A stretch of DNA of 64,000 nucleotides, from assembly GCF_010586825.1 (NCBI RefSeq), contig NZ_JAAAGB010000004.1, forward strand, positions 124,001 to 188,000, written 5' to 3'. Shown here in pieces: positions 7,617-25,916 of this stretch. Within the stretch, counting starts at the first letter, position 1, and every line of letters begins with the position of its first letter. The notes beneath the pieces were generated by a model. That model did not search any database, was not told the origin of the DNA, and saw nothing but the letters and a program-made list of their open reading frames with translations. Source of the stretch: Draconibacterium mangrovi (GTDB lineage Bacteria; Bacteroidota; Bacteroidia; Bacteroidales; Prolixibacteraceae). The translations under genes and the position numbers were made by a program.

Positions 7617-7624
7617 TTCTGTAG

Positions 7625-8071: not shown

Positions 8072-8074
8072 ATT

Positions 8075-8887: not shown

Positions 8888-10034
8888 CAGTATGAATACA
8901 TGAAACTCCCAGTGGTACCTCCAACAGCGCATTGGCGTAGGAGAGTGCATTTATATGCGCTGATCCATGAAACGGAATTTCCGAAATTGCTCCATTTTCA
9001 TCGATAACTACCGGAATTATTGCCAGTCGATTGGCTTTTTTTCGTTGATAAGTAAAGTTCATCGGGGCTTTAATACGCAATGGTGCGTAGTTGGCTCCGA
9101 GTAGTTTGTAGATAACCGGTTTGGCAATCAACTCAAACTGTACGAATGACGAAACCGGATTTCCGGAAAGTCCAAAAACGAACTTGCCATCCTTTTCTGA
9201 AAAAGTCATTGGGTTACCCGGCTTAATGCCCGTGTGATCCCAGTATATTTGAAAACCTTGTTCTTTCAATATCTCCGGAATAAAATCGAAATCTCCGACT
9301 GATGCTCCGCCAGTAAATACGACAAAATCGTTCAATTCCAGTGCTTTGTTAAAACTTTCCGTGAGCAATTTATAGTCGTCAACCAGCATGAGTTCGGCCA
9401 CAATTTCAAGATTCATTTTCCTGAGCTGGGTGATCACCTGGCTGGAATTGCTGTTTCGAATCTGACCTGGTTTTGGCGTTTCTGATGGGGAAACCAATTC
9501 ACTTCCGGTGGCAATTACGGTTACTTTCGGGCGTTTTGAAACTAACACCTCAGCATAACCTGCACCGGCAAGAACTGCCATTTGTGGAACATTAATCAGC
9601 TTACCTTTTTTTAGCAGTACATCGCCTTTTTTATAATCTTCACCCAGGTAACAAATATTCTTTTTCGTTTTAGGATTTGTGCAACGCACCTTGTTTTCAG
9701 AAAGTTCCTCAGTATCTTCAACCATAAAAACGCAATCGCATTCAGGCGGAACAGCAGCGCCGGTCATAATTTTTACACACTGGTTTTTCCCAATTTTAAC
9801 AGAGGCAATTTTACCGGCATTAATTACTTCCAATATTTCCAATTCATTGGCAATATCTTCAAGTCGACACGCATAACCGTCCATTGCCGATTTATTGAAC
9901 GGAGGCATATCTAAATCAGCAACCACATTTTCCTGTAGTACCCGGTTATATGCATCTTCCAGCTGTACCTTTTCAGTCGGTAGAACCGGTGACAAACTGC
10001 CGATCAGCTGTTGTATTTTTTCGAATTGGTTCAT
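8859..10034 (-). CDS. moeA: molybdopterin molybdenumtransferase MoeA
   Basis: The 391-residue protein matches MoeA throughout. PPFNKSAMDGYA lies near residues 44-55, CVKIMTGAAVPP at about 105-118, the GEDYKKGD region follows, and the catalytic domain carries VIATGSELV, NSNS, FTGGASVGDFDFIPEIL and GLSGNPVSSFVQF. MoeA inserts molybdate into adenylylated molybdopterin. Its start overlaps the upstream MobB-like gene by 4 nt (ATGA), and its 3' end overlaps moaA. Confidence 0.95.
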   Translation of the reverse strand: MNQFEKIQQLIGSLSPVLPTEKVQLEDAYNRVLQENVVADLDMPPFNKSAMDGYACRLEDIANELEILEVINAGKIASVKIGKNQCVKIMTGAAVPPECDCVFMVEDTEELSENKVRCTNPKTKKNICYLGEDYKKGDVLLKKGKLINVPQMAVLAGAGYAEVLVSKRPKVTVIATGSELVSPSETPKPGQIRNSNSSQVITQLRKMNLEIVAELMLVDDYKLLTESFNKALELNDFVVFTGGASVGDFDFIPEILKEQGFQIYWDHTGIKPGNPMTFSEKDGKFVFGLSGNPVSSFVQFELIAKPVIYKLLGANYAPLRIKAPMNFTYQRKKANRLAIIPVVIDENGAISEIPFHGSAHINALSYANALLEVPLGVSCIHTDELAYVRPL

Positions 10035-10579
10035 GAAACAAATGAAAATTTATTGTTGATGAGCTGAATTTTAGTGTAATCAAATTTAAGCTTTTCTCCG
10101 TCATTATTCACAATTATCGGGTTGTGTATCAGGTGATGAGGTTTTCTTACCACAGTTCCGGTTGATTGAATAAAAAAGAACAAACCCGGATTAATAATTT
10201 CATGTAAGCCGCCCGATTCGCACACGATGGGAGTTTCAGGTAAAAATGTCGATAGTTTTTCAAAAGCTTCCGGAAGGTACTCCGGCCTGGCCATGACAAA
10301 GAAAACCTGTTTGGCACCCGCTTGTAACATCAGCGAACTGTCTTTTCCTGTAATCTGCTTTTCCTGCAAAATAACGTAGTGCTCATCTTTTATAAGTACA
10401 TCTTCGCTGTTGTGCTCGTGAATATGCGAGGTGATTTTAAGTCCGGTAATGGGAGCTTGTTCGGATAATGACTCTATTACGCGACAGGCAAAGTAGGTTT
10501 TTCCCACATTTCTCCCGTTACCTGCAATCAATAGCAAGTTCGGATAATCGATTTTGGTATCTCTTTGTAATTGTGTCAT
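10031..10579 (-). CDS. MobB-like P-loop GTPase, first gene of the Moco operon
   Basis: The 182-residue product has a Walker A loop GNGRNVGKT near residues 20-28, and ITGLKITSHIHEHN, resembling the MobB fold. MobB binds GTP and helps the guanylation of Moco. The middle and C-terminal parts (VCESGGLHEIINPG, then a proposed strand-rich end) are not closely matched, so the exact role is open. It is the first gene after the riboswitch and overlaps moeA by ATGA. Its position, rather than its sequence alone, supports a cofactor role. Confidence 0.75.
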   Translation of the reverse strand: MTQLQRDTKIDYPNLLLIAGNGRNVGKTYFACRVIESLSEQAPITGLKITSHIHEHNSEDVLIKDEHYVILQEKQITGKDSSLMLQAGAKQVFFVMARPEYLPEAFEKLSTFLPETPIVCESGGLHEIINPGLFFFIQSTGTVVRKPHHLIHNPIIVNNDGEKLKFDYTKIQLINNKFSFVS

Positions 10580-12418: not shown

Positions 12419-12438
12419 TCTGCCCTTGCTTATTTTTT
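12384..12438. terminator. bidirectional terminator embedded in the coding ends
   Basis: An 18-bp perfect stem: the left arm 12384-12401 lies inside the last codons of the T9SS gene (core AAGCAAGGGCA), and the right arm 12421-12438 reaches the ccsBA stop codon. A runs and T runs at the ends serve both directions. Confidence 0.8.
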
Positions 12439-15400
12439 ATTCCTCGGAATGTTCTACCTCTTCTACAATCGGATTTGTTTTTTCAGCGAAATAGGCCGAA
12501 ACAATTACCAGTGCTACAACTGCCACTGCAATATAAACACCTGAAGGAATTGGAGCTGCTTCGCCTTGTGCATACGAATGTAACCCAGATAGGTAATAAT
12601 TTACTCCAAAATAGGTCATTAACACCGAACTGATACCCAAAACAGCAGCCACACTCATGGCAAAACTACCGCGCATTCCGGGAATGCGGTGCATGTGCGT
12701 GATGAATGTATACACTAAAATTGTAACCAGCGCCCAGGTTTCTTTCGGATCCCAGCCCCAGTAGCGCCCCCAGCTTTCGTTAGCCCAAACGCCACCTAAA
12801 AAGGAACCGAGCGTAACCATTAACAAGCCAATTATCAGTGCAATCTGGATGATATTCACGAGTTCTTTTATTGTGTGATTGATCCTGTCCGAATTGCGTT
12901 TGTTTCTGAAAATCATTAAAATGAGGTTTAGGAAACCAAGCAATGCACTAATACCCAAAAAGCCGTAACTGGCTGTAATAATTGCTACGTGAACAATTAA
13001 CCAATACGATTTTAAAACCGGTACCAGGTTGGTAATTTCCGGGCTCATCCAGCTCATTCCGGCCACCATCAGTGTTAATCCGGCCAAAACCGATGTTAAT
13101 GACAGCGTAATTTCCGAACGTTTGGCAAAGATTAAACCGCCAAGTGCAGTTGCCCAGCTAATAAATACCATCGACTCGTAACCGTTACTCCATGGCGCAT
13201 GACCTGAGATGTACCAGCGAATTGCCAGTCCTGCAGTTTCGGCTAGAAACAGTACGAGAATAAAGTAAAAGGCAAAACTTTTCAGGAAGCGTAATTTAAA
13301 ATTCGGATTAAACAAGGTGAGCAATTGTAACATCAGAAGAATCAGCCCTGTAAACATGAAAATTTTGGATAACTTCCCAAAAATGTTCAGGTTATTATAC
13401 AGTACTTCCATTTTTACTTTTGTTGCAGATGGAATGATCTTCGCTCCAATGGTTTCCTGGTTTTGTTTCAGGTTATTCAGCAATTGGTTGGCTGTTGCCC
13501 AATCGCGTTTTTGTACCGATTGCAGATATGACGAAACCGTTTGCCTTGCGAAATCAGCATTTTGGGCAGGAAGTTCCTTTGCTTCGTTAATTGATACCCA
13601 TTTATGATTATCATCGTTTGGAACGGGGAATATAGTCAGAAAATCGCCGGTAAAAATGGCCATAAGAATATTAACGCGTTCGTCAACATTCATAATTTCT
13701 TTGTCGAATTTATTACGGTGGTTACTCTCTTTTGCATAAGCGGCCTGAACATCTGAGCTAAGTATATAACCACCCATTTCGCGTGGTCGAACAATTGAAT
13801 TAAATGAGGCATATTTTCCTGTAATTCCTATCGTTCGGCGTATTTCGGGATTGGCAACTTTTATAATGGCAATGTTTTTCCAAAGCTCAGGATTTGCCTG
13901 CATACCAAGAAAAACTTCGGTTGGCGACATACCTTCCCAGCTGGTTTTTTTAGCCACTTTTCGAAGTATTTCCGATGCCAGTGTAGAAACGGGCTCTACG
14001 CGGCCTTTTCTATCCTGAATAAGCAAACTCTCGAACGATTCGGCGTGGTCGCTGTTAAGTGGTGCGGGTGTTGCAACTTGTGCCTGTGCGCTAATACTCA
14101 ACAATACGCCCGTTACCAAAACAGCAAACAGTTTTTTGCGTTTTTCGCGTAGTCGTGCCGATGCTTTCAGCAGGGTTTTAAACCGACTGTTTCGGTTAAA
14201 CAAAGTCAGTACCATCCCGATGGCCATAATCAGGTAACCAAAATAAGTTACCGATGTTCCTGTTGAGTCGTGGTTTACCGAAAGAATTGTGCCGCGCTCA
14301 TCCGTATCGTACGACGATTGGAAGAAACGATATCCTTTGTATTTCAGAATGTTGTTCATGAAAATGCGGAATGGCATTTCGGTTGCACCGTCTGTTAAAA
14401 CCACTTCGCTGGCATATGATGACGGACTCATTGAACCCGGGTAACGTTCGAGCTGGAAATCGTTAAGCTGAATAGCAAACGGAAGCTTTATTATTCGCGA
14501 ACCGTATGAAACTGACACAGTCATTCCATCGATGGATGTAGTGAAAAAATCGCCAACTTCTCTAGTCCTTCCATAAACAATCAACTCCTTACTTTCTTCA
14601 CCAGTTGAAATCGCAGCTTTAAAAGCATCCGGAGGACTCATTTCCTGTGATGGTTTTTGGTAAACCAATTGAACCGAAGCAGTTGGAAGAAACTGTTTAA
14701 TGGCAAACGTGAGGTTTTTATACGTATAGGCCTTTTGCGTATCTACCAGTTTTTCAGTACCAGGAGCTATCAACTCACTGTTGTCGCTCATCATTCCTGA
14801 TACCTGAATGGTATCGTTAGCAGAAAGATACAGGTTTCCATCCTTTAAACTCAGTTTAATATCAGTAGTTAAATTGTTGCCGAAACCCAGCGTTAAACCA
14901 TTTAATGTTTTTGTGTTATCGTTTCTTAGCGTAAAGTCTTTTCGCGACGCACCATTTTCAACCGTAATCAGCGAAACAATGGGTTCACCATTCGGATCGA
15001 GAACGACGTTTTCCACCGCCGATGGCATAAATTGCTGATTGCTGATGTGTATTGTTTTTCCTTTAAAATGTATTTTTTCTGAGAAACGGTTGGCGGTGTA
15101 TGGCGAGAATTTAACTTCGCTCGATTCTTCTATTGTTTCGGTACCATCAGTAACCTTAACCGTAACAAACGATGCTTCGGAAACGATATAATCCGACGAA
15201 CTGTTTTCGCGAATATGCATGCTGCCTTCATAACCGTAATAACGTGTAATCATTGCACCTACACCAATAACGATAAAGGAGATATGAAAAAGTAGAATTG
15301 TCCATTTTTTCCGTGCAATGAGTTTGTATTTAAAAACACTGCCAACGATGTTAATGCAGAGTATAAACAACAAGATCTCGAACCACCTGGAATTATAAAT

Positions 15401-15529
15401 GAGAATTTTTGCAGTAATGGTACCATAATCGTTTTCGATAAAGGTGGCGTAACCAATTGCTATTGCAAAAATTACCACAAGAATTCCGGTAAAAAACATG
15501 GAAAAAAGGAATGAACTTAGCTTCTTCAT
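12437..15529 (-). CDS. ccsBA: fused cytochrome c biogenesis protein CcsBA (ResB-ResC type)
   Basis: This 1030-residue membrane protein joins a ResB/CcsB-like half and a CcsA half. The first half has N-terminal helices and a large extracytoplasmic domain (about 80-430); the C-terminal CcsA domain starts near 720. The tryptophan-rich haem-handling motif WGRYWGWDPKETWALV lies around 920-935, followed by conserved FITHMHR and GLHSYA histidines. System II synthases export haem and attach it to CXXCH motifs of apocytochromes. Placement directly after the multihaem genes fits this job. A hairpin separates it from the tetrahaem gene. Confidence 0.93.
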   Translation of the reverse strand: MKKLSSFLFSMFFTGILVVIFAIAIGYATFIENDYGTITAKILIYNSRWFEILLFILCINIVGSVFKYKLIARKKWTILLFHISFIVIGVGAMITRYYGYEGSMHIRENSSSDYIVSEASFVTVKVTDGTETIEESSEVKFSPYTANRFSEKIHFKGKTIHISNQQFMPSAVENVVLDPNGEPIVSLITVENGASRKDFTLRNDNTKTLNGLTLGFGNNLTTDIKLSLKDGNLYLSANDTIQVSGMMSDNSELIAPGTEKLVDTQKAYTYKNLTFAIKQFLPTASVQLVYQKPSQEMSPPDAFKAAISTGEESKELIVYGRTREVGDFFTTSIDGMTVSVSYGSRIIKLPFAIQLNDFQLERYPGSMSPSSYASEVVLTDGATEMPFRIFMNNILKYKGYRFFQSSYDTDERGTILSVNHDSTGTSVTYFGYLIMAIGMVLTLFNRNSRFKTLLKASARLREKRKKLFAVLVTGVLLSISAQAQVATPAPLNSDHAESFESLLIQDRKGRVEPVSTLASEILRKVAKKTSWEGMSPTEVFLGMQANPELWKNIAIIKVANPEIRRTIGITGKYASFNSIVRPREMGGYILSSDVQAAYAKESNHRNKFDKEIMNVDERVNILMAIFTGDFLTIFPVPNDDNHKWVSINEAKELPAQNADFARQTVSSYLQSVQKRDWATANQLLNNLKQNQETIGAKIIPSATKVKMEVLYNNLNIFGKLSKIFMFTGLILLMLQLLTLFNPNFKLRFLKSFAFYFILVLFLAETAGLAIRWYISGHAPWSNGYESMVFISWATALGGLIFAKRSEITLSLTSVLAGLTLMVAGMSWMSPEITNLVPVLKSYWLIVHVAIITASYGFLGISALLGFLNLILMIFRNKRNSDRINHTIKELVNIIQIALIIGLLMVTLGSFLGGVWANESWGRYWGWDPKETWALVTILVYTFITHMHRIPGMRGSFAMSVAAVLGISSVLMTYFGVNYYLSGLHSYAQGEAAPIPSGVYIAVAVVALVIVSAYFAEKTNPIVEEVEHSEE

Positions 15530-15555
15530 AATTAGTAGTTGTCTGAATAAAACAC

Positions 15556-15594
15556 TAAAAAAATTCCTTTGTTTGAAAAAACAAAGGAATTTTT
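15556..15594 (-). terminator. terminator after the tetrahaem cytochrome gene
   Basis: Stem AAAAATTCCTTTGTTT paired with its exact complement around a short A/T loop, ending in a T run on the minus strand. It lies between the tetrahaem gene and ccsBA, so ccsBA may need readthrough or its own promoter. Confidence 0.75.
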
Positions 15595-15617
15595 CACAAA
15601 ATAAAAGTTTTTAGAAA

Positions 15618-16124
15618 TTAGTTGGTTGTAGGATCGTCGTGAGCAATTACTTTCACAAATTCAGCATAATTCCATGCTTTTTTAGGAGCCACATGGCCTT
15701 CTGGTTTTTCACCAAGGTGACAAGCCTTACAGGTTTCTTCGGTAGGATCAGTCATTCCTTTTGAAAGAGCCATTGTTTTGTTCTTCATAATTGCAGCCGA
15801 TTTATAGTGGCTACCAGGTCCGTGGCATGATTCGCACGAAACTCCTTCGTCAGCTTTAAGACCGGCAAGTAAACCGCTGTCAACAGATCCGGCAGTTGAG
15901 TGGCATTTTAAACAGGTTGCATTGGTTTTATCGGCACCTTCCAAAGCATCCATTGCTTTGGCGTGTGGGCCTGCCTGCCAAACGTCAAACTGTTTGCCTT
16001 TTTCGGGCTTGTTATGGCACATCTTACATTTTGCAGCACCAATGTACTTGTAAGTTTGAGCGGTGGCTGCAGTACTAAATAAAACTGCAAGGCCTAAAAG
16101 AAAAATTAATTTTTTGAGTCTCAT
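15618..16124 (-). CDS. periplasmic tetrahaem cytochrome c, c554-like
   Basis: The 168-residue protein has a signal peptide (1-22, ending TAAT-AQ) and four haem motifs: CKMCH (33-37), CLKCH (71-75), CESCH (97-101) and CKACH (132-136). The arrangement YIGAAKCKMCH, then W and H residues, then VSCESCHGPGSHY is typical of the cytochrome c554/c' family. It is probably a soluble periplasmic electron shuttle or a small oxidoreductase. It is the last cytochrome gene of the cluster, 75 bp after the NapC-like gene, and is followed by a terminator. Confidence 0.9.
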   Translation of the reverse strand: MRLKKLIFLLGLAVLFSTAATAQTYKYIGAAKCKMCHNKPEKGKQFDVWQAGPHAKAMDALEGADKTNATCLKCHSTAGSVDSGLLAGLKADEGVSCESCHGPGSHYKSAAIMKNKTMALSKGMTDPTEETCKACHLGEKPEGHVAPKKAWNYAEFVKVIAHDDPTTN

Positions 16125-16199
16125 AATCGTGTATTTAAAATTTATATTACTTGTTTTCTGAAAAGTCTATTATAAGAATAATAAATATTGTGCCAAAAT

Positions 16200-17702
16200 T
16201 TAATACAATGCTGTATGACACATTGAGCACATTTCACTTCTCCAGGCTTCGGCAATGTCAACCGGGTGTTGGAAATCCAAAGCTTCGAAAGCGGTTGAAT
16301 ATTGCATGCTATCCCGGGTGCCCTGTGCTATAATGTTGTGGCACAACGAACAGTCTTTTGAAATCGTCTTGTTTTCTGTTGTTGCATGGCGGTCGTTATG
16401 GCAACGGTAACATCCGTCTGATTCCATATGACCAATGTTATTTGGATATTCTTTCCAGTTGGCTTTCATAAACGGGAAAATGTTATTGGAATAATCTTCC
16501 TGGATCGCAGCTATTGCCTGGTCGATTTCCGTTTTTTTAGTTTCGTAAACATCCGGGTAGCCACTTTCAAACCAGTCTTTGATCTGGTTTTCGATAGCAA
16601 TCATTGCTGTGTCTTTATTTGGATAATCCTGGTAAAGGGCCATCATGGCGGCCAGTTTTATGGCAGGCAATTCGGTTGAAATTTTGCCCTCAGCCATCGA
16701 CTGATCGATAAAGTTTTGCGGAGCATTGTAATTGTGCGATGGCCTGTTATGGCAATCTAAACAATCCATTACCCGTGTTTCCAACGAATCGAGCTCTGCT
16801 TCTGTAACCATGCTCATTTCATCGGTATAAATGTATTCTTCTCCGGTTTTTGTATTTGTATATTTTACCCACGGAATAATCTGACGTTTTTCGTCAAGTG
16901 CTTTGTATTCAATTTTTACCTCGGGGCTAATGTGCTGGTGTATACCTTTTATCACTCCCTGTGGAGTTACCTGTGTACTTGTTTTCACCTGCAAATGAAC
17001 AATATGTTCGGTGTTTTCTTCATCAGTTAAAAATGAATGTTTTACCCTCATTTTATTATCGTAGAATTTCTCCGGCCAGTGACATTCTTCGCAGGTTTCG
17101 CGTGCCGGACGCAGATTGGCAATTGGGGTAGGGATAGGTTGTGGATATTTGTTTGCCAAAACAGAGTATACCTGGTATAAACCCGAAAGTTTACTTTTTA
17201 CATACCAGCTGGCTCCCGAACCAACGTGGCACTCCACACAAGCAACACGCTCGTGCGACGAACCGTGATAGGTTACGTATTCCGGCTCCATAACCTCGTG
17301 ACATAACTTTCCGCAAAATTCTACCGATTCGGTGTAATGAAAAGCTTCGTAACTTCCTACGGATGAAATAATAAGCAGGAAAATTGTTCCAACGATAAAA
17401 ATTGTGCTGGCATTGCGGGTAGCCAGATTATTAAAATCTAAGATTGGCCAGTTTAAACGTTTGCCTTCTTTTTCAGCCAACCGCGCTTTCTTTCGGTAGA
17501 TTCGCATCCCCAGCGGGATCATGAGTAATCCTACGATCAAAAATACCGGAAGGATGATGAAAATGAATAAACCAATATATTGACCACCAAATCCGAAAGC
17601 TACATTCAAAAGAAATAAAGCGAGGATGCTGGCCAGGTTGAAAACAGCTAAAACTGCTCCTGTAATCGATACCCAGTTTCTTATGGAAGACGGTAATTTC
17701 AT
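16200..17702 (-). CDS. membrane NapC/NirT-like multihaem cytochrome c (seven haem motifs)
   Basis: The 500-residue protein has three N-terminal membrane segments (about 12-33, 42-66, 100-117) and then a periplasmic multihaem domain. Motifs are CGKLCH (130-135, a CX3CH site), CVECH (155-159), CEECH (204-208), then CLDCH, CYRCH, CSLCH and CSMCH, the last near the C-terminus. FCGKLCHEVMEPEY and VACVECHVGSGA are the hallmark of NapC/NirT quinol dehydrogenases. It should oxidise membrane quinol and pass electrons to periplasmic partners. Compared with tetrahaem NapC it has extra C-terminal haems and two more membrane helices. Confidence 0.9.
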   Translation of the reverse strand: MKLPSSIRNWVSITGAVLAVFNLASILALFLLNVAFGFGGQYIGLFIFIILPVFLIVGLLMIPLGMRIYRKKARLAEKEGKRLNWPILDFNNLATRNASTIFIVGTIFLLIISSVGSYEAFHYTESVEFCGKLCHEVMEPEYVTYHGSSHERVACVECHVGSGASWYVKSKLSGLYQVYSVLANKYPQPIPTPIANLRPARETCEECHWPEKFYDNKMRVKHSFLTDEENTEHIVHLQVKTSTQVTPQGVIKGIHQHISPEVKIEYKALDEKRQIIPWVKYTNTKTGEEYIYTDEMSMVTEAELDSLETRVMDCLDCHNRPSHNYNAPQNFIDQSMAEGKISTELPAIKLAAMMALYQDYPNKDTAMIAIENQIKDWFESGYPDVYETKKTEIDQAIAAIQEDYSNNIFPFMKANWKEYPNNIGHMESDGCYRCHNDRHATTENKTISKDCSLCHNIIAQGTRDSMQYSTAFEALDFQHPVDIAEAWRSEMCSMCHTALY

Positions 17703-17954
17703 AATTTTTCGTTTATTGGTTTGATGTAAAATCTACTGATCCAAGATTATAATTTTCCTTTAATTATTCAAGGTCAGATACTTATTTATAAATTGTCTAT
17801 ATACGCAATGTTAATTTGAAACTATGTTCTGAACATGAAGTTTTAATGTTTCTTTAGATTTATATACTTGTCATGTTTACTGTTTGTTATACTACTAATC
17901 CACTAGGGTTAAGTATTAAAAATTGTATTTTCATTCTTTTCGTTTTTTCGCCTA

Positions 17955-20786
17955 TTAATGGAAAATTAAAGAGTAAATTATCAGTATTATCATCATTACA
18001 CCGGCGAAAAGTGCAGTGAATCCAAAGATTTTTATCGTTCTCATCCTCTCTTTCGTAAACTCTTTTTCAACGCGAACTTCATTTATTTTCCCTGATTTTA
18101 CCAGTTGCTCATATTCGTGTGGTCGATCTTTTTTGTATTCTTCCTCCAGGACATATCCCGTGAAAATTACAGTATCCATCGGGAAGGATTCGGGGCGCAG
18201 GTGTGTATTAAAAAAGTGAATGGTAAAAATAAATCCAACAGCAAGTAAAGCCTCGTCGCTGTGTATAATCTGAGCCACATTAATGAGCCAGCCGGGCAGG
18301 AATTTGGTGAAGAATTCGGGGAACCATAGCATTAATCCGGTTGAGCCAATTACAAGCACTCCCCAGAATACGGCGAAGTAGTCGAATTTTTCCCAATAAG
18401 TCCATCTTCCATAGTTTGGCCGTGGACCAATTCCTATAAACCATTTAATTGATGCCCAAAAGTCGCGAATGTCTTTCCGGTTAAACATCAGTGAGTTACT
18501 GCTGAAAATGAATTTGCTGACTTTTATTCCATGTTTAAACTTAACTTTTAATAGCGCTACCACATGGAATATAAAATATCCGAAAGTGACCAGGGCAGCC
18601 GTTCGATGAATAAAACCGGCAATATGGGCACCGCCAATGGCTTCGGCCAAAAACTGGGCCCAGGGCATGTAGGCAAATTTCAAAATCATTCCGGTAAGGG
18701 CAAGCAGTATGAAACTTACTATTACAAAAATGTGGGTTATCCTGTTTTTCTTCTGGAAACGCCTGATATACATTTGTTTGCCCAACGGTTTTGGTTCCTT
18801 TCGTTTTTTTATCATGGCACCAAGCGACCGGGGTATCCACAATAAGGTGTGCAGGCCGAAAAAGGCAAACACGCTTAACAGTAATCCGGTCATTGCCCAG
18901 AATGTGTAATAGAGCCATGGAAAATTGCTTTTATCATAGTGAGTGGCATGTGTCAGGTAACCGGTAAATTTCATATTGGCATCAGTATGACATTTCGAGC
19001 AGGTGGCAACAATATTTCGTGGACTGATCGTTGATTTTGGATTGTCCATCCGATAGATATTGTGAGCACCATGGCAGTCGGAACAACGTGCAGCCTCAAG
19101 GTAACCCAATTGATACACTTTCCCATGATAGGTTTCGAGGTAAGTTTCTGCCAGTTCCTGGTGGCACTGTCCGCACTGAGAGCTGATTTCCGACATAAAT
19201 TTGCTTTCATGCACTTCGGAAATATTGTGGGCCGAGTGGCAGGTTTCGCAGGTAGGGAATTTCAACTCTTCGGTGTTGGCACCAATACCGTGTTCGCTTT
19301 CAATATACTGGTCGTAAATTCCTTTGTGACAATTTCCACAAGTTTTGGCGAGGTTGGCCGGATTCACCGACGATCGTTCATCATCTTCTTTTAACATGAA
19401 GTGTGTGGTGTGGCAATCGGTACAAATAGCGGCCGACAACAGTCCTTTTTCCTCCAGACTTTTTCCGTGCACACTTGTTGAATAATCATAATAGGCATCG
19501 GTTTCCTTCAGGTTGGTACCGGCAACTGCCTGGCCATTTTCTTTATGGCATTCGCCACAAAGTTTTGGTACTGCAGAGCGGAAAGTAGGCGAATTTTCAT
19601 TCTCGGAAGGAACAACAAGGTGCGACCCGTGGCAATCGGTACAATATGGTGCATTTTCGTGTTTGGCAAAATAAGCCTCTCCATGGCCGCTTTGGAAATA
19701 GATCTCGGATTCCTCTGCATGGCAACTCGAACAATCGACTTTATCCGCAGTTTCACACGGACGGGCAATATTTGCGGTAACATCCGAGTGGCATTTAACA
19801 CAGGTAATATTATTGTGAGCCGAATTAACAAATTCATTTACATCAACATGAAGAGAAACCTGCCTGTCGTCAATTACTTTATGAATTTCGGGTTGTTCGT
19901 GGCATTTTAAGCAGGTTTTATCTGAAATGTTTTCAATAATATTTTTCAACTCAACTTTGTGTGGAGGATGGCAATCGGTGCAGGCCGGAATTGCCCCCGG
20001 GCTTTTCTCCCAAAGTTCCTTGTTGATTATTTTTATGTGTACATCTTCAATTCGTGCATGGCATTGCATACAGGTTGCTGCAATGTTTTTCTCCGAAATG
20101 CTGGAGTTCATGTTGGTGTGGGGGAGAATAAGGTGGTTTCCGTGGCAGTTGTTGCAGGTGGCAGTTACCACCAAACCACTGCTAAATAATCCTTTTCCGT
20201 GAATGCCCTGTGTGTAATTTTCAACAATGTTGTGCTCGCCAATATTGTAGGCCCGTGCAACCGGCGCACCTTCACGGTGGCAGGTTCCGCACAAAACCGG
20301 AATATTCATTTTATAGGTGCGCGATTGCGGATCGGCTGAGCTCAGTATCCTGTGTGTTCCGTGGCATTCGGCACAGTTGGGTGCATTGCGTGAGCCTTTT
20401 TCAAAAGCCATTCCATGAACACCATCCATGAACTTTGTCATGGCTTCGTCATGGCAATCGCCACAATTTACTGGTTGCAGTTTATCGGCATGTGGAAATT
20501 CTTCAACGTCAGCATCCGTGTGGCACGAAATACATTCGAGATAACTGTGTACTGAATTTTCGAGAATACCGGCAGGAATATACCTTGAAACTTCCCGGCC
20601 GTTTACAATGGTAAATAGTTCCGGGTCGTCGTGGCACATGGCACAATCATCATTGGATTGTGCCATCAATTTAAATCCGGACATCAGAAGCAAACCGACG
20701 ATTAAAAAGATTTTAACCAGTCCTGAATTTGCTTCGGTGCATACATCGAACAGATTGTTAGTTAAAGTTTTGCTCAAGTACTTCAT
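17955..20786 (-). CDS. 19-haem cytochrome c fused to a membrane cytochrome b domain
   Basis: The 943-residue protein has a signal/anchor (about 22-43), 19 CXXCH motifs between 48 and 600, a membrane helix (about 625-650), and a C-terminal four-helix cytochrome b domain (about 680-943, with membrane histidines in THIF, IHRT and FHVV). The haem region is internally repeated: motifs 1-7 (48-243) and 9-15 (292-487) align with shared text such as NAPxCxxCHGxH and CGxCH, and motifs 16-19 form a partial third copy. The likely job is to move electrons between the quinone pool and periplasmic or outer carriers. No close characterised homologue is recalled. Confidence 0.9.
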   Translation of the reverse strand: MKYLSKTLTNNLFDVCTEANSGLVKIFLIVGLLLMSGFKLMAQSNDDCAMCHDDPELFTIVNGREVSRYIPAGILENSVHSYLECISCHTDADVEEFPHADKLQPVNCGDCHDEAMTKFMDGVHGMAFEKGSRNAPNCAECHGTHRILSSADPQSRTYKMNIPVLCGTCHREGAPVARAYNIGEHNIVENYTQGIHGKGLFSSGLVVTATCNNCHGNHLILPHTNMNSSISEKNIAATCMQCHARIEDVHIKIINKELWEKSPGAIPACTDCHPPHKVELKNIIENISDKTCLKCHEQPEIHKVIDDRQVSLHVDVNEFVNSAHNNITCVKCHSDVTANIARPCETADKVDCSSCHAEESEIYFQSGHGEAYFAKHENAPYCTDCHGSHLVVPSENENSPTFRSAVPKLCGECHKENGQAVAGTNLKETDAYYDYSTSVHGKSLEEKGLLSAAICTDCHTTHFMLKEDDERSSVNPANLAKTCGNCHKGIYDQYIESEHGIGANTEELKFPTCETCHSAHNISEVHESKFMSEISSQCGQCHQELAETYLETYHGKVYQLGYLEAARCSDCHGAHNIYRMDNPKSTISPRNIVATCSKCHTDANMKFTGYLTHATHYDKSNFPWLYYTFWAMTGLLLSVFAFFGLHTLLWIPRSLGAMIKKRKEPKPLGKQMYIRRFQKKNRITHIFVIVSFILLALTGMILKFAYMPWAQFLAEAIGGAHIAGFIHRTAALVTFGYFIFHVVALLKVKFKHGIKVSKFIFSSNSLMFNRKDIRDFWASIKWFIGIGPRPNYGRWTYWEKFDYFAVFWGVLVIGSTGLMLWFPEFFTKFLPGWLINVAQIIHSDEALLAVGFIFTIHFFNTHLRPESFPMDTVIFTGYVLEEEYKKDRPHEYEQLVKSGKINEVRVEKEFTKERMRTIKIFGFTALFAGVMMIILIIYSLIFH

Positions 20787-20948
20787 GCTAAGCCGTCTTT
20801 AATATAATTACTAAATCCCTTATCTCAGCCTACCTTGCGAGCCAACCATGCATTATTTGTGTGCCGCTATTTCTGTCCTGTTTTCTTTCTTCGCCCTCTT
20901 TCCTGTCGTTTTATTGTTTATTTATGACTTACTTTTCTCTTGTTAAAA

Positions 20949-21566
20949 TTATACGTGGTGCCAACCGTTTACAATACTTCTGAAATTATCAAGCGGCGAC
21001 TTGCCAATTGATGCAATGTAAAGGTGAATAATCAGGAATATGGAAATAAAGAATCCCATAGCCGAATGTGTTACGGCAGTGATAAGAACACCGCTGATAT
21101 TGTATATTTTATTAAAAATCAGCTCGGGAAACATTAATCCGATACCAGAAATTATCACCAATGGAACAATAATGTACATTACGATTAGGTAAGTATATTT
21201 TTGCAAAGGATTGAATTTACGTTTTTCAGAAAGTGGGTAAGGAGCTTTCATTCCGTGAAACATTCCCCACGCGTAATAGTATGCCTGTTTCATTGGGCGT
21301 TTCAAAAAGTTCTTTGGTTTTACAATGTAAAACTTTTTATTTGAGGTTACCATGTTACCTATTAAAAACAAAAGATAGTTTAAGGAAACTATTACTCCGG
21401 CATAATTATGCACGGTAATAATAAGTTTAAAGCTGATAACGGATTCCTCAAAACCCGAGTTCATGCTTATTCCGGTAATAATAAGTAGAATAATACCCAG
21501 GGCGTTTATCCCATGCCAAATACGTAACCAAAGTGGGTAGAAGTATATTTTGTTTTCTGAGCTCAT
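20949..21566 (-). CDS. membrane cytochrome b subunit (b561 / FdnI-like)
   Basis: The 205-residue protein has four hydrophobic segments (about 17-35, 50-70, 125-145, 165-190). It carries histidines placed for b-haem ligation: WLRIWHGINA in helix 1, VHNYAG in helix 2 and VTHSAMG then LIIHLYIA in the last helix. This is the pattern of cytochrome b561/formate dehydrogenase gamma proteins, which oxidise or reduce quinone. Its start lies 2 nt after the seven-haem gene, so the two are surely a pair, equivalent to the fused 19-haem protein downstream. Confidence 0.87.
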   Translation of the reverse strand: MSSENKIYFYPLWLRIWHGINALGIILLIITGISMNSGFEESVISFKLIITVHNYAGVIVSLNYLLFLIGNMVTSNKKFYIVKPKNFLKRPMKQAYYYAWGMFHGMKAPYPLSEKRKFNPLQKYTYLIVMYIIVPLVIISGIGLMFPELIFNKIYNISGVLITAVTHSAMGFFISIFLIIHLYIASIGKSPLDNFRSIVNGWHHV

Positions 21567-21568
21567 TG

Positions 21569-22507
21569 TTATTTCTTTTTGATGATAATTCTAAATATTA
21601 CGTGAATGATAATTCCAGCCATAGCTGCGAAAAAGATGATTAAACTAATCGTTCTTAAAATTGGAATCTGGTGCGATCCAATCACGTAATTTTCATTCGA
21701 AAGTACACCAAGTGCAGATCCGTCTTCGGCTCTTTCCTGCAGGTTTTGGTATTTGTATAACGATGCTTTTAACAACGAGTTGGCCGAGTGGCATTCGGCA
21801 CAACGGCGCACAGCATCTTCTTTTGCAAGAATGTTGTGCGAAACCATTAAATCGTCTTCAACCGCAGTATGACATTCAATACAACGTACATGTTTAAAAT
21901 GGAGCTCCTGATTTGGCAGCCAGTCGTGAATATCAACAACGGCAGATTTAAGATCGCCGGATACCAGGCTAAACCTTTTCATATCGTTATGACACGATAA
22001 ACACATGTCGTTACTGTTTTCAACAATCTCAACAATACTGCTACTTGTGCGTGCAGTGGTAGAGTAGTAGTGTTGATCGTGGCATTTTGAACAGGTAAAG
22101 TTATCGCCAAAACCCTGACGGTGTATACTCTTGTTAACTTCTTCGTCAATTTTATCAAACTCGTATTTTGCAAACGACTCGTCGCCGCCATGACAATCCA
22201 GGCATGTCATCATTGGCTCCAGCTTTAACGATGCTGCATGCGGATAGGTAGTGTAGTCGAATGAGTGGCAATCCGTGCAGTCGAAATTCTGATGAACACC
22301 TGTACGTAATCTTAAGGTATCGATTATCAGGTACGGATTCATCAGACGTTTCTCCTCCGTATCCATCATGTCGTTATGGAATGAATAGGTTTGCTGGGAG
22401 TGACACTTTAAACAATCGTGACTTGCGGGATCGTCGTAAAATTGCCCGAAACTTTTTAACGTGATTGTCAAAAGCATCAGGATTTGTAATGGAATGAAAT
22501 ATTTCAT
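21569..22507 (-). CDS. membrane-anchored heptahaem cytochrome c
   Basis: The 312-residue protein has a signal peptide (1-21), seven CXXCH motifs (CLKCH at 32-36, then CTDCH, CLDCH, CSKCH, CLSCH, CIECH and CAECH) and a C-terminal membrane helix (about 285-305, then IIKKK). The haem region is about as long as one repeat of the 19-haem protein and carries the same number of motifs. It should sit in the periplasm, held to the inner membrane, and take electrons from the cytochrome b encoded next to it. Confidence 0.88.
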   Translation of the reverse strand: MKYFIPLQILMLLTITLKSFGQFYDDPASHDCLKCHSQQTYSFHNDMMDTEEKRLMNPYLIIDTLRLRTGVHQNFDCTDCHSFDYTTYPHAASLKLEPMMTCLDCHGGDESFAKYEFDKIDEEVNKSIHRQGFGDNFTCSKCHDQHYYSTTARTSSSIVEIVENSNDMCLSCHNDMKRFSLVSGDLKSAVVDIHDWLPNQELHFKHVRCIECHTAVEDDLMVSHNILAKEDAVRRCAECHSANSLLKASLYKYQNLQERAEDGSALGVLSNENYVIGSHQIPILRTISLIIFFAAMAGIIIHVIFRIIIKKK

Positions 22508-22558
22508 GGGTTAATTCGTGTAAATAGATCTGAAGTATTGCAATAACTTTATGGAATG

Positions 22559-22598
22559 AAAAATGGTAATATCGTTTTTATCGGATATTACCATCTTT
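22559..22598 (-). terminator. terminator after the DUF5777 gene
   Basis: Eleven-bp arms ATGGTAATATC and GATATTACCAT are followed on the minus strand by a T run. It separates the barrel/monohaem pair from the heptahaem/cytochrome b genes. Confidence 0.7.
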
Positions 22599-22620
22599 AT
22601 CATTTATACTTTTTAATCGA

Positions 22621-23517
22621 TTAGAACATCCAGATACGGGTTATGGTAAAACCAAGGGCTAAACCTTTATTGGTCCAGTCATTTTGGTTAAACATCATCA
22701 TATCCTGTGGGAGAATACCTTGTGCTGTTCCAACATAAATCTGGAATGCGTGGGTAAAGGTAAAGAATTCAACACCAAACGACAGGTTTTCTTTAGCATG
22801 AGTATCCCAGGTGTATTGCTCTGAAATATCTTTGATCTTTAGAGGCTTGTCGTAGTTGAAAATAAATGATCCTTGTGGAGAAAATTTAATTTTTCCACTA
22901 AAATGAAGCCCAACAACATCATGGTTGTAATCCCAATCTGACATATTATAGTGCGTAAAACTTGCGGCGGCTTGCAATGAAGCCCAATCGCCGAATTTAC
23001 GCGTTACCATAGCTTGTGAGAAATACGATAATCTGTCGTTCAAATCGATATAATTAGGCATTGTCTGGCCTTTTGTATCTACAGTTTTACCAGTTCCAAT
23101 CGATTCGGAATTTCTTCCATCAATAGCAACATTACCAAATAAGGTGAACGATATTGGCATACCGCTTGTTTTTTGCTGAAGTACTTTCCACTTCGCATTA
23201 AGATCGGTATACATGAATTTTTTGGTAATACCTGCTCCGATTTGAAAATTTTTGACAGGAACATAATTTAGTCCTAATCTTACATTAGAACCCGGAGCAT
23301 AAATTCCCCACAGATCGGATCTCCCGTTTTCAAGTGTTCCAAATTTGTGTTGAATAACAAATTCCAGTGTTCGTGCATCAGGAATAAAAGATGTTTGTGC
23401 ATCAATCAGAATACCACTGTTAAAAGCGTAAACCGGATCGGCTGCCTCTTCCTGAGCAAATGAACTGGAAAAAGTAACTCCTAAAATAATTAGAATCAAT
23501 ATGTATTTTTTCATCAT
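22621..23517 (-). CDS. DUF5777-type outer-membrane beta-barrel protein
   Basis: The 298-residue protein has a signal peptide (1-21), then alternating amphipathic strands ending in an aromatic residue (RIWMF), as outer-membrane barrels do. The start DAQTSFIPDARTLEFVIQHKFG and the phrase SDLWGIYAPGSNVRLGLNY match DUF5777 as remembered. The function of the family is not established. Here it sits 15 nt after a monohaem lipoprotein and beside the hexahaem lipoprotein, so a role as barrel for an outer-membrane electron conduit is reasonable (inference). A second Met directly follows the first. Confidence 0.8.
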   Translation of the reverse strand: MMKKYILILIILGVTFSSSFAQEEAADPVYAFNSGILIDAQTSFIPDARTLEFVIQHKFGTLENGRSDLWGIYAPGSNVRLGLNYVPVKNFQIGAGITKKFMYTDLNAKWKVLQQKTSGMPISFTLFGNVAIDGRNSESIGTGKTVDTKGQTMPNYIDLNDRLSYFSQAMVTRKFGDWASLQAAASFTHYNMSDWDYNHDVVGLHFSGKIKFSPQGSFIFNYDKPLKIKDISEQYTWDTHAKENLSFGVEFFTFTHAFQIYVGTAQGILPQDMMMFNQNDWTNKGLALGFTITRIWMF

Positions 23518-23532
23518 TATCAGTTTAGGTTT

Positions 23533-23910
23533 TTAATTGTTTTTTGCTCCTTGCGTTATCCAGGTTAGCACCAATGCTGCCTCTGACTCCGAATATTTAA
23601 CGTGGCTTCCTGTTGGGCTTGGTTTGGTATAAATCAAACTTGATGCAGGATCAGAAGTATTAATATAACGGCTGCTGTTGAGCGAACTATAAGCATTTGA
23701 AGGAGTGAGATCTGGCATTTGATTACCAGTGGTATGGCATGATGTACACTTTGCAGAGAAAATAGGAGTGATCTCAGCTGAAAACGATACCTCAGGAGCA
23801 TCGGGATCGGTCGGATCGATTACTTCTTCTTCAACAATCCAATTGTACGCACAGCCACCAAAAATCAATCCTATAAGAAATATTGATAATATAATTTTTA
23901 GTGCTTTCAT
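23533..23910 (-). CDS. monohaem c-type cytochrome lipoprotein
   Basis: The 125-residue protein has a lipobox (LIFGGC, lipidated Cys at about 20), a short linker, and one haem motif CTSCH in ITPIFSAKCTSCHTTG. The sequence up to VLTWITQGAKNN resembles the small planctomycete-type cytochrome c domains on surface lipoproteins of Bacteroidota; a methionine ligand could come from NQMPDL. It probably passes electrons at the outer membrane next to the DUF5777 barrel. Confidence 0.85.
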   Translation of the reverse strand: MKALKIILSIFLIGLIFGGCAYNWIVEEEVIDPTDPDAPEVSFSAEITPIFSAKCTSCHTTGNQMPDLTPSNAYSSLNSSRYINTSDPASSLIYTKPSPTGSHVKYSESEAALVLTWITQGAKNN

Positions 23911-23923
23911 AATATTAAAGTTT

Positions 23924-23960
23924 GTGAAAAAAAAGACTTCCCGAGAGAAGTCTTTTCACT
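23924..23960 (-). terminator. terminator after the hexahaem lipoprotein gene
   Basis: Stem AAAAGACTTC / GAAGTCTTTT around a CCGAGA loop, with a run of eight T on the minus strand. It lies 13 bp past the hexahaem stop codon. Confidence 0.75.
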
Positions 23961-23973
23961 CTATTTCTTTTAA

Positions 23974-25038
23974 TTAATTAGCTGCCAAAGCGTTTAGTTC
24001 AGCTTCCATAGCCTCTATTGAGTTTCTCAATAACGCTTTTACGTATTTAGGATTGTGAACTCCTAAACTGCGGTCTTCTTCTAATCCAACCCAGTTAAAG
24101 AAAGCTTGAACCTGAACTGTTGGGAAAGTTCCTACATGTGGATGATAACCATCTTCGTCATTTCCTTCAACAACTCCTAAAGCAATAAGCTGATCTCTAA
24201 GTTCAACTAACATTTCGTGTACCTCTGTTTGAACACCACCGTAGTTGTAGTCATCCAAATCTGCATCGTGACATTCGTTACAAGCAGCAAGACTAGGAAT
24301 AAATGAGTGACCACCTTCTTCGTTTGTGAATTCGGCCATATGACAACCTACACAAGAAGCCTGGTTTAAGTGTTTTGAAGAACCTTGTTCAGGATAAGCA
24401 ACTGATCCGGGAATTTCGGCAAAACCCATACCTGCCACAACATTACCTTGTGCACCGTGGTGTGGTCCGTAGTGAGTACTTGTTATTTTGAATGTTTCTG
24501 GTAATTCTTCTAATCCGTAACCAGGTTCAGCTCTTCTTGACTGGTGACAATTAGCACACAGGTTGCTGTTACCACCCAGGTCCATAGTTAATGTATTGTC
24601 AAAAACAGGATTAACCGGGGCATGCAAACGCAATGCGTAATCTTGTCCTTCAAATGTTTCGTGAAGTCCGTGGCAAGTATTACATTCCCAGGCTGAAGGA
24701 TTGGAAATATCTCCAAGAACTTCGCCTAAAGTTGCAAACTGAACAAAACCCTCGTGAGAGTGGCATTGTGCACATGATTGACGTCCGCCGGCATAATCAA
24801 CTGCAATAGCACCTACAGCATGTTCCGACATCCAGAACTGTCCTTGTTTTGCTTCCATATTGGTTCCTGAGTGGCAAACTAAACAAGTAACTTGTCCGTC
24901 AACACCATCAGTGCCATCTGTTCCGTCAGCACCGTCAGCACCGCCAGGTCCCATTGGGCCTTCCTTTGTACATGAAGAAAACATGAATGCCAGAATGAAT
25001 CCTAGCATGAATAATTTTGAGATAGATTTGTAATTCAT
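23974..25038 (-). CDS. hexahaem cytochrome lipoprotein with collagen-like stalk
   Basis: The 354-residue protein has a lipoprotein signal with the lipidated Cys at 23, then seven uninterrupted Gly-X-Y triplets (27-47, for example GADGADGTDGTDGVDG). Six CXXCH motifs follow: CLVCH (52-56), CAQCH (89-93), CNTCH (119-123), CANCH (161-165), CVGCH and CNECH. A haem-free C-terminal part (about 265-354) resembles the end of ammonia-forming multihaem cytochromes. The stalk would hold the haem domain away from the membrane. A perfect FNR-type box lies 133 bp upstream of its start. Confidence 0.9.
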   Translation of the reverse strand: MNYKSISKLFMLGFILAFMFSSCTKEGPMGPGGADGADGTDGTDGVDGQVTCLVCHSGTNMEAKQGQFWMSEHAVGAIAVDYAGGRQSCAQCHSHEGFVQFATLGEVLGDISNPSAWECNTCHGLHETFEGQDYALRLHAPVNPVFDNTLTMDLGGNSNLCANCHQSRRAEPGYGLEELPETFKITSTHYGPHHGAQGNVVAGMGFAEIPGSVAYPEQGSSKHLNQASCVGCHMAEFTNEEGGHSFIPSLAACNECHDADLDDYNYGGVQTEVHEMLVELRDQLIALGVVEGNDEDGYHPHVGTFPTVQVQAFFNWVGLEEDRSLGVHNPKYVKALLRNSIEAMEAELNALAAN

Positions 25039-25170
25039 AACGTAGTATATTAGGTAATTTATATTTGTTATTATACTTTACGATATAAAAGTAGTAGGAT
25101 AACTATTAAGAAATCTAGGGGGGAGAATGATATAACTGAATGGCTAAATTGATAATAAACAAGCCAATAA

Positions 25171-25184
25171 TTGATGTATATCAA
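25171..25184. promoter_or_regulatory. FNR-type operator (TTGATGTATATCAA)
   Basis: TTGAT-GTAT-ATCAA matches the FNR consensus TTGAT-N4-ATCAA exactly. It starts directly behind the stop codon of the FNR-like regulator and upstream of the hexahaem gene on the same strand. A promoter about 40 bp further on would leave a leader of roughly 100 nt. Confidence 0.75.
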
Positions 25185-25916
25185 TTATCCGTTTTCGCTA
25201 ATAGAAACTAGTGAACTTTCGTCTAATATGCTTATTGTATTACCCTTGGTATTTATGTATTTGGAATCTTTAAATTGATGAAGTATTCTTACAAAGCTTT
25301 CTTTTGTCATGTTTGACATTTCGGCTAATTCCTGCCTCGTAAGCGGCACGGAAAACTCATTGGAATTGAAAATTTCGTTCTTTAAATACAGTAATGTGTC
25401 GGCTACCCGGCCCGGCATATATTTTTGTGTATGGTCGACCAGTTTTTTTAGCAGAAAATTATTTTGTTTGGTATGGTTGCGTAGTAATTTAATGGCAAAC
25501 TCGTTGTTTTTTCCAAAAATGCTGGTCAGATTCGCTGAATCGATCATACAACATTTAACCTTAGTTATTGCCGAAACACTAAAATGCTGAAAGTTTCCGT
25601 TGAAAAGACCTCCACCACTGATAAAGTCGCCGGCTTTGGCAATACGGACTATTACATTTTTACCGTTCGCACTTTCAACATAAAATTTAGCCAGACCTTC
25701 ATTAATACATATTACGGAAGTTGAAGCCGTATTTTGCTTGGTAATTGTTTCGCCAACATTATATACAATTTGCCTTTTTTTGTCAATTAGAAAGTCTATT
25801 TCTTCCTGGCTGAGGGGTGAAAAGATATTATTTCTATGCTCTTTGATACACGATTTGCAACCTTCTCCATGAAGCTTACCACTTTTGTTACAATTGTCGG
25901 TATTTATATGGGTCAT
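25185..25916 (-). CDS. Crp/Fnr-family regulator with FNR-like cysteines
   Basis: The 243-residue protein has a cyclic-nucleotide-type beta-roll (about 35-150), a long dimer helix and a C-terminal helix-turn-helix (about 190-225: PLTRQELAEMSNMTKESFVRIL). Cysteines 9, 20 and 23 at the N-terminus plus the 122-123 pair in KVKCCMI mirror the cluster ligands of E. coli FNR (20, 23, 29, 122). The N-terminal spacing differs (CX10CX2C). An oxygen-sensitive Fe-S cluster is therefore plausible but unproven. It is first in the cytochrome block and lies next to its probable operator. Confidence 0.88.
   Translation of the reverse strand: MTHINTDNCNKSGKLHGEGCKSCIKEHRNNIFSPLSQEEIDFLIDKKRQIVYNVGETITKQNTASTSVICINEGLAKFYVESANGKNVIVRIAKAGDFISGGGLFNGNFQHFSVSAITKVKCCMIDSANLTSIFGKNNEFAIKLLRNHTKQNNFLLKKLVDHTQKYMPGRVADTLLYLKNEIFNSNEFSVPLTRQELAEMSNMTKESFVRILHQFKDSKYINTKGNTISILDESSLVSISENG

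Follow-up and report, generated by a model that had tools for sequence, protein, structure and literature searches.

Among the described systems closest to the one reported here, MtrCAB-type conduits for electrons across the outer membrane contain a large barrel, with 26 strands in MtrB (PMC12133095) or a predicted 28 (PMC7096707). At the inner membrane, ImcH, CbcL, and CbcBA of Geobacter sulfurreducens work at different potentials (PMC12307469, PMC9129911). Homologs of ImcH have three N-terminal transmembrane segments, an atypical CX3CH motif next to the transmembrane domain, and five to nine CX2CH motifs, and members of the CbcL/MtrH/MtoC family, with 3 to 23 heme motifs, were found in 15 phyla; for Bacteroidetes, Zhong and Shi counted five CbcL-family homologs and one ImcH homolog (PMC6295460). 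Two relatives of the organism studied here within the Bacteroidota are Labilibaculum, which reduces Fe(III) and Mn(IV) (PMC5760507), and Prolixibacter, which corrodes iron (PMC4767289), neither paper naming the genes. Here, we analyzed a 64-kb stretch of DNA (the window) from Draconibacterium mangrovi (assembly GCF_010586825.1, contig NZ_JAAAGB010000004.1, positions 124,001 to 188,000), which contains a cluster of ten genes, p10 to p1, encoding many multiheme cytochromes. We hypothesize that the cluster encodes an anaerobically controlled chain leading from menaquinol to the outer membrane for the export of respiratory electrons, with the hexaheme lipoprotein p9 as the terminal reductase for extracellular acceptors, and we consider this fairly probable.

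A conserved ten-gene unit

Six-frame open reading frames (ORFs) place the ten genes on the minus strand at 12437-25916, with p10, p9, and p8 transcribed first and p1 last (Table 1). An earlier reading of these letters and ORFs, made without database searches (the original prediction), had counted 43 CXXCH and one CX3CH motif in six one-strand genes, and our motif count agrees exactly (p2, 4; p3, six CX2CH and one CX3CH; p4, 19; p6, 7; p8, 1; p9, 6). Its other elements were also recovered: the two b-type modules as Pfam Ni_hydr_CYTB domains in p4 and p5, the barrel as DUF5777 in p7, the two cytochrome lipoproteins through the lipoboxes of p8 and p9, the heme lyase as Cytochrom_C_asm and ResB in p1, and the FNR-like regulator as cNMP-binding and Crp helix-turn-helix domains in p10. 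On the coding strand, the pattern TGYN6TGYCAY occurs 43 times inside the block versus 3 times in the other ~50 kb of the window, so the crowding of heme motifs is not due to chance; on the plus strand it occurs once inside and once outside.

The original prediction had staked itself on the genes being conserved together, and they are, as judged from gene order, from flanking genes, and from the co-occurrence of p7 and p9. A GTDB scan with p4 gave at least 584 sites that encode relatives; the best 80 loci were retained, and 13 of these carry the cluster in the form seen in the window. All ten genes are in the same order and on the same strand in eight of the 80 (L033, L034, L035, L039, L040, L042, L080, and L084; locus and contig numbers are ours), counting L035, in which a contig end cuts p1. 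The cluster agrees in L037 and L041 as far as their contigs extend, and it lacks p10 in L038, p2 and p1 in L036, and p1 in L043, where the contig is cut at p8. Homologs of the window's flanking genes adjoin the cluster in L033, L034, L042, and L035 (with only one side on the contig) and were not found beside it in the other nine loci of the window's type, three of which are cut on the p10 side. The surroundings of the cluster are thus conserved only among the closest relatives, which sets p10 and p1 as the boundaries of a real ten-gene unit.

Rearranged subsets were observed in nine further loci (L045, L046, L057, L061, L062, L063, L069, L079, and L108), titled Bacteroidetes, Bacteroidales, Marinilabiliales, or Chlorobiota, and p7 was found in 22 of the 80 kept loci. 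The remaining 58 loci belong to many phyla, often lie on short contigs, and have p4 with or without p3 and p2; among them p7 occurs only in L050 and L070. In whole-genome searches that included the genome itself, p4 had matches in 49 of 140 family genomes (E <= 1e-100) and in 46 of 296 phylum genomes at E <= 1e-20, a threshold that lets in more distant proteins combining multiheme and b-type parts. The p4 of the nearest named genome, that of Draconibacterium sediminis (L042), is 99% identical, and despite this the L042 p9 (L042:5725-6813) has 362 residues versus 354 in the window, with an insertion in the C-terminal half; by median identity, no protein of the cluster varies more than p9.

Across 295 Bacteroidales genomes, 65 have p7 together with p9, 10 have p7 without p9, 7 have p9 without p7, and 213 have neither (the p7 cutoff, near 1e-25, was chosen by eye, and relatedness is not accounted for in the Fisher P value). 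The two genes lie within 10 kb of each other on one contig in 29 of the 30 best p7 genomes other than our own.

Putative quinol oxidases of the inner membrane

Judged by sequence, the inner-membrane half of the cluster is of known kinds, with the architectures of ImcH, CbcL, and CbcBA. The three N-terminal transmembrane segments of p3 (9-41, 34-69, and 93-112; all transmembrane segments were called with a simple hydropathy window), its CX3CH at 130, and its six CX2CH motifs match the features described for ImcH homologs. The CX3CH is kept in all 35 listed p3 orthologs and the six CX2CH in 32 of them, two of the other three being cut by contig ends. The original prediction spoke of a NapC-type module, and p3 does match the N-terminal region of Pfam NapC, although it is better read as ImcH-type. 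Matches to p3 at 35-43% identity are present in 22 of 198 genomes of the phylum to which the Desulfarculales locus L107 belongs.

The build of the CbcL/MtrH/MtoC family is found in p4, which joins its 19 motifs to a C-terminal b-type domain (Ni_hydr_CYTB, E 9e-9, above the cutoff); a match to the formate dehydrogenase gamma subunit (E 2e-9) lies under the cutoff of that family. Five C-terminal transmembrane segments were called versus the six helices typical of the family. In several other Bacteroidota genomes, the c- and b-parts of p4 are two adjacent, separate frames.

The third module is a pair in which p5 begins 2 bp after p6. All seven heme motifs of p6 are invariant in 17 sequences, and p5 is PhsC-like, with a score below the curated cutoff (NF011582, 155 bits versus 204). 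A p6-profile search of the same 198 genomes matched 9, among whose loci like-built p6/p5 pairs were identified at L187 and L192, with 26% (p6) and 32% (p5) identity to the L192 pair. In L184 and L185, single CbcL-like proteins have seven heme motifs and six or seven transmembrane segments, and in L184 the gene is adjoined by one for a p2-like tetraheme protein (34% identity). The four heme motifs of p2 itself are invariant in 17 sequences, and p2 is a candidate periplasmic carrier. By analogy with their counterparts, p3, p4, and p5/p6 would oxidize menaquinol.

Predicted outer-membrane proteins and putative anaerobic control

In the alignment of 16 p9 sequences, from which L105 was omitted, the lipobox cysteine, a (K-)E-G-P start, and six heme sites are shared, one site being CX4CH in six of the sequences, and the number of Gly-X-Y triplets varies. 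When the p9 profile was compared with solved structures, OcwA came top (E 2.5e-13), followed by NrfA, octaheme nitrite reductases, and, weakly, MtrC (E 4e-4). Foldseek with the p9 model (mean predicted local distance difference test [pLDDT] 74.8) also ranked OcwA first (E 5e-4, TM-score 0.48 by query, root mean square deviation 6.9), ahead of the S-layer cytochrome 6qvm and NrfA, and p9 thus has an NrfA/OcwA-type fold by both profile and Foldseek. In its Gram-positive, electroactive host, OcwA serves as the terminal reductase at the cell surface, and it is related to cytochromes of the N and S cycles (PMC6703420). Scores above the Pfam cutoffs were obtained for Cytochrome_C7, MtrC/MtrF domain II/IV (32.9 versus 30 bits), and Cytochrom_C552, profiles of heme motifs that overlap, such that p2 and p4 also pass MtrC/MtrF domain II/IV.

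The CXXCK of the catalytic heme of NrfA was not found in p9. A separate NrfA is encoded elsewhere in the genome (PF02335, E 6e-179; L180:7314-9422, contig C21), with CXXCK by eye and, also by eye, an NrfH-like neighbor; for these two reasons, a nitrite-reductase role of p9 was judged unlikely. The statement in the original prediction that no known terminal reductase is present is right for the block, within the searches made, whereas the genome has this NrfA on another contig. A further protein of the genome, encoded at L148:457-2850 (contig C11, ~0.70 Mb), is 797 residues long; its N-terminal part is multiheme, its C-terminal part is repeat-rich (tetratricopeptide-like by eye), and it matches Cytochrom_C552 in one stretch.

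The AlphaFold2 model of p7 as a single chain, from an alignment of 49 homologs, has twelve strands (mean pLDDT 87.9). Its Foldseek matches in PDB, headed by OmpG with the COG4313 channel next and including NanC and FapF within the first 20, are ordinary barrels with modest TM-scores (best 0.61 by target among the matches listed) and indicate no function. In all 30 of the best-scoring p7 loci of the order (chosen by score rather than at random, with the window's own locus among them), p8 adjoins p7; 27 of these loci have p6 and 24 have p9 no more than 1.5 kb away. A second DUF5777 subfamily was sampled at ten loci of the order (L205-L214), hand-picked among weaker matches, and a monoheme lipoprotein gene is nearby in all ten (nine by BLASTP to p8, and L210 by motif and position); in L208 there is also a neighbor with three CXXCH. 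These loci have a YceI-like gene by eye in nine of ten cases and usually a small membrane protein of ~145 residues; possibly they represent a separate outer-membrane redox unit. Barrel and monoheme lipoprotein therefore look like a general Bacteroidota pair, which this cluster has linked to a long chain. The other DUF5777 gene of the D. mangrovi genome (L113:8206-10323, contig C11, ~1.504-1.506 Mb) directly follows a gene for a secreted cupredoxin-like protein, and no cytochrome was seen beside it. The cupredoxin-like protein appears, by eye, to have a type IX sorting domain at its C terminus.

The FNR protein of Escherichia coli has conserved N-terminal cysteines and one central cysteine. In 16 aligned p10 sequences, C20 is conserved in 16, C23 in 15, and C123 in 15, a sequence pattern of an FNR-type Fe-S sensor; further N-terminal cysteines shift in place (C9 in 10, C12 in 9, C19 in 9). 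The palindrome TTGATN4ATCAA has a single exact match in the window, the one between p10 and p9. At up to two mismatches, matches over the window are at chance level (70 versus 70), and hence no weight is given to anything but the exact site and its conservation. In the 350 bp preceding p9, a site with at most one mismatch is present in 11 of 16 loci (dinucleotide shuffles, mean 0.91, maximum 4 in 200), and the relaxed TTGAYN4RTCAA, written after seeing the sequences, is present at the same tolerance in all 16 (shuffles, mean 1.6, maximum 5). One near-match (one mismatch) lies 120 bp before p7, and sites before the other window genes have at least three mismatches. Sigma-70-like matches are no more frequent than in shuffles (41 versus 38.1, standard deviation 5.7), and terminator-like matches exceed them (23 versus 13.5, standard deviation 3.7). 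Genes resembling alternative complex III by eye were observed elsewhere in the genome (L114:8750-16846, contig C1), and the organism hence seems to have an aerobic chain too.

Table 1. Features of the ten-gene cluster, in order of transcription (window positions)
Feature	Position	Strand	Basis
p10, Crp/FNR-family regulator, FNR-like cysteines	25185..25916	-	Pfam cNMP_binding + HTH_Crp_2
FNR-type palindrome TTGAT-N4-ATCAA	25171..25184		begins 146 bp ahead of p9 start codon
p9, hexaheme lipoprotein, collagen-like Gly-X-Y stretch, OcwA/NrfA-related	23974..25038	-	lipobox, 6 CXXCH
p8, monoheme cytochrome c lipoprotein	23533..23910	-	lipobox, 1 CXXCH
p7, DUF5777 outer-membrane beta-barrel, 12 strands modeled	22621..23517	-	PF19089 E 7e-65
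p6, heptaheme cytochrome c, C-terminal membrane anchor, CbcA-like	21569..22507	-	7 CXXCH, transmembrane 280-311
p5, b-type cytochrome, CbcB-like	20949..21566	-	Ni_hydr_CYTB PF01292 E 4e-24
p4, 19 c-heme motifs fused to C-terminal b-type domain, CbcL-like architecture	17955..20786	-	Ni_hydr_CYTB
p3, ImcH-type heptaheme quinol-oxidase candidate	16200..17702	-	3 N-terminal transmembrane segments, CX3CH + 6 CX2CH
p2, tetraheme cytochrome, c554 family, signal-like N terminus	15618..16124	-	PF13435 E 1e-11
p1, CcsBA-type cytochrome c heme lyase, ResB + CcsB fusion	12437..15529	-	Pfam Cytochrom_C_asm + ResB

A second ResB-bearing frame, similar in length to p1, lies elsewhere in the genome (G000:C11, ~840.5-841.5 kb). 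Beyond the cluster, molybdenum cofactor genes (moaC/moaA/moeA/mobB-like by eye) adjoin it at 6678-10579; a link to them was rejected, since L033, L034, and L042 are the only loci of the window's type in which the two lie side by side. At 60532-62631, the window encodes a 699-residue protein that by eye resembles a sulfoxide synthase fused to a methyltransferase, of the ovothiol/ergothioneine type.

Proposed electron export, competing readings, and known systems

We propose that, without oxygen, p10 would switch on p9 and perhaps the genes downstream. The ImcH-type p3, CbcL-type p4, and CbcBA-type p5/p6 would take electrons from menaquinol in the inner membrane and pass them to periplasmic hemes, including those of the tetraheme p2 and the large c-domain of p4, and from there to an outer-membrane unit of the monoheme lipoprotein p8, the 12-strand barrel p7, and the hexaheme lipoprotein p9, with p1 attaching the hemes. 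The most likely terminal reductase would be p9, acting on oxidized metals, humics, electrodes, or a partner cell. We infer the direction of electron flow, the acceptor, the contact of p7, p8, and p9, and the crossing of the outer membrane, for which the heme of p8 might sit at the mouth of the barrel or the stalk of p9 might be held by or threaded through it. Median identity among loci of the window's type (8 to 12 loci per gene, L042 omitted) is 69% for p3, 68% for p4 and p5, 60.5% for p6, 58% for p7, 57% for p2, 48% for p8, and 39.5% for p9 (41% without a probably spurious 21% row of L037). The fall from p3, p4, and p5 to p8 and p9 would fit an outward chain and lends that idea weak support.

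Several observations weigh against electron export by this chain. Low identity is also seen in p1 (50%) and p10 (47%), which are not outward facing, and for p5 (45%), p7 (44%), and p6 (40%) the nine rearranged loci give values that do not exceed that of p8 (45%). The p9 model is of middling confidence, and the TM-score and deviation of its OcwA match are those given above. The modeled p7 barrel is too small for an MtrAB-type wire, and DUF5777 barrels also occur with monoheme lipoproteins in clusters devoid of multiheme proteins, so the p7/p8 pair is not specific to electron export. A strong 17-pair hairpin on the minus strand, followed by a T-rich tail, occupies 15558-15595 between p2 and p1 and might terminate transcription ahead of p1, and p4 is separated from its neighbors by 162 and 252 bp; one operon is therefore not shown, and co-transcription of the cluster is presumed. 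We know of no test of extracellular electron transfer in Draconibacterium. Lastly, the export signal described for surface lipoproteins is C-X-K-(D/E)2-X in Capnocytophaga and in others combines a serine with acidic residues (PMC5080379). At least two acidic residues at +2 to +6 were counted in 22 of 25 readable SusD lipoboxes of this genome (from 30 fetched of 56 matches); p8 has none, and p9 has one, after a lysine at +3. With the signal partial in p9 and absent in p8, the presumed exposure of both at the surface is unproven.

Overall, the cluster is real and conserved and probably serves anaerobic respiration, and the extracellular reading is the most likely, albeit unproven. What stands of the conduit in the original prediction is a conserved cytochrome chain from the inner to the outer membrane, with ImcH, CbcL, and CbcBA architectures and an OcwA-related lipoprotein. 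More tentatively, the outer-membrane half might be an electron-transfer unit of the Bacteroidota's own, working without a heme wire in a large porin: a 12-strand DUF5777 barrel and a monoheme lipoprotein, joined to a collagen-stalked, OcwA-like p9 that the barrel holds at, or lets through to, the surface. We regard this as possible, with the odds rather against it.

The strongest competitor, which we nonetheless find unlikely, is periplasmic respiration, in which p9 faces the periplasm and reduces a soluble substrate entering through p7, with nothing leaving the cell. The kinship of p9 to NrfA and octaheme nitrite reductases, the resemblance of p7 to the small channels OmpG, NanC, and the COG4313 channel, and the absent or partial export signals of p8 and p9 would suit it, but p9 is without CXXCK, has OcwA as its top match, and shares the genome with an NrfA that has an NrfH-like neighbor. 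Moreover, the 16 p9 sequences have five invariant and one nearly invariant nonmotif histidines for six hemes, which suggests mostly bis-histidine hemes, an argument tempered by OcwA, which has enough histidines for all its hemes and yet two open ones (PMC6703420).

Quite improbably, the same chain might run inward, with p9 taking up electrons supplied by Fe(0), Fe(II), or a partner cell for the reduction of menaquinone. Homologs of CymA and CbcL/MtrH/MtoC are present in both Fe(III) reducers and Fe(II) oxidizers (PMC6295460), CbcBA has been proposed to run in reverse in Seep-SRB2 (PMC10553843), and a Prolixibacter strain takes electrons from iron (PMC4767289), whereas for ImcH a part in quinol oxidation is the only role implicated to date (PMC6295460), and FNR-type control fits electron disposal, though uptake remains compatible with it. 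An MtrCAB/PCC-type conduit (PCC, porin-cytochrome complex) in which p7 sheaths a multiheme cytochrome was rejected as very improbable: barrel, soluble-looking cytochromes, and lipoprotein cytochromes are encoded together, and the original prediction drew the analogy with barrel-cytochrome pairs of other phyla, but p7, with 12 strands modeled (pLDDT 87.9) versus 26 (PMC12133095) or a predicted 28 (PMC7096707), is no MtrB-like sheath, and its constant neighbor is a monoheme lipoprotein.

If this chain does export electrons, such export would extend to common sediment Bacteroidota, and it would have to be explained how the electrons get past a barrel without room for a heme wire. The cluster offers conserved gene candidates for Fe(III)/Mn(IV) reduction and iron corrosion in related Bacteroidota, with an expected switch (no oxygen) and an outer-membrane module unlike MtrCAB. 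The name DUF5777 was not found in the literature searched, which covered few subscription papers and no preprints, nor was a description of this cluster found in that on Bacteroidota cytochromes and extracellular electron transfer. The outer-membrane half is a variant without a description in the literature searched, and "undescribed," as the original prediction ventured, is likely rather than certain, as a seven-gene cytochrome/barrel cluster is reported in the metagenome-assembled genome Bacteroidetes_1, which was enriched in an anode biofilm (PMC8258643). That cluster is also from the Bacteroidota, has six multiheme cytochromes and one barrel, and was proposed for extracellular electron transfer; it has seven genes versus ten here, and the comparison is by description, the available text giving no family names or sequences.

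With Geobacter, p3 shares the three N-terminal transmembrane segments, CX3CH, and six CX2CH of ImcH, p4 the c-domain and C-terminal b-domain of CbcL, and p6/p5 the CbcBA arrangement of a heptaheme gene beside a b-cytochrome gene, a likeness at the level of architecture. Unlike in Geobacter, all three oxidase types are in one cluster, and p4 has 19 heme motifs versus nine c-hemes in CbcL (PMC9129911). The C-terminal region of p9 aligns with NrfA of NrfHA, but p9 is without CXXCK. OcwA of Thermincola potens (PDB 6i5b) is the best match of p9 by profile and fold and shares a C-terminal region ending in D-x-S-x-G-x-H-N; unlike OcwA, p9 has six hemes versus nine, a lipid anchor and a collagen-like stretch, and a Gram-negative host. 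Among solved structures, p9 matches OcwA and NrfA better than MtrC, although it does pass the Pfam cutoff for MtrC/MtrF domain II/IV. With MtrCAB, PCC, and OetABI, the cluster shares a supposed function, the passage of electrons across the outer membrane by a barrel and a cytochrome lipoprotein, and it differs from them in its 12-strand DUF5777 barrel, versus one of 26 strands, and in the monoheme lipoprotein that is the constant neighbor of the barrel.

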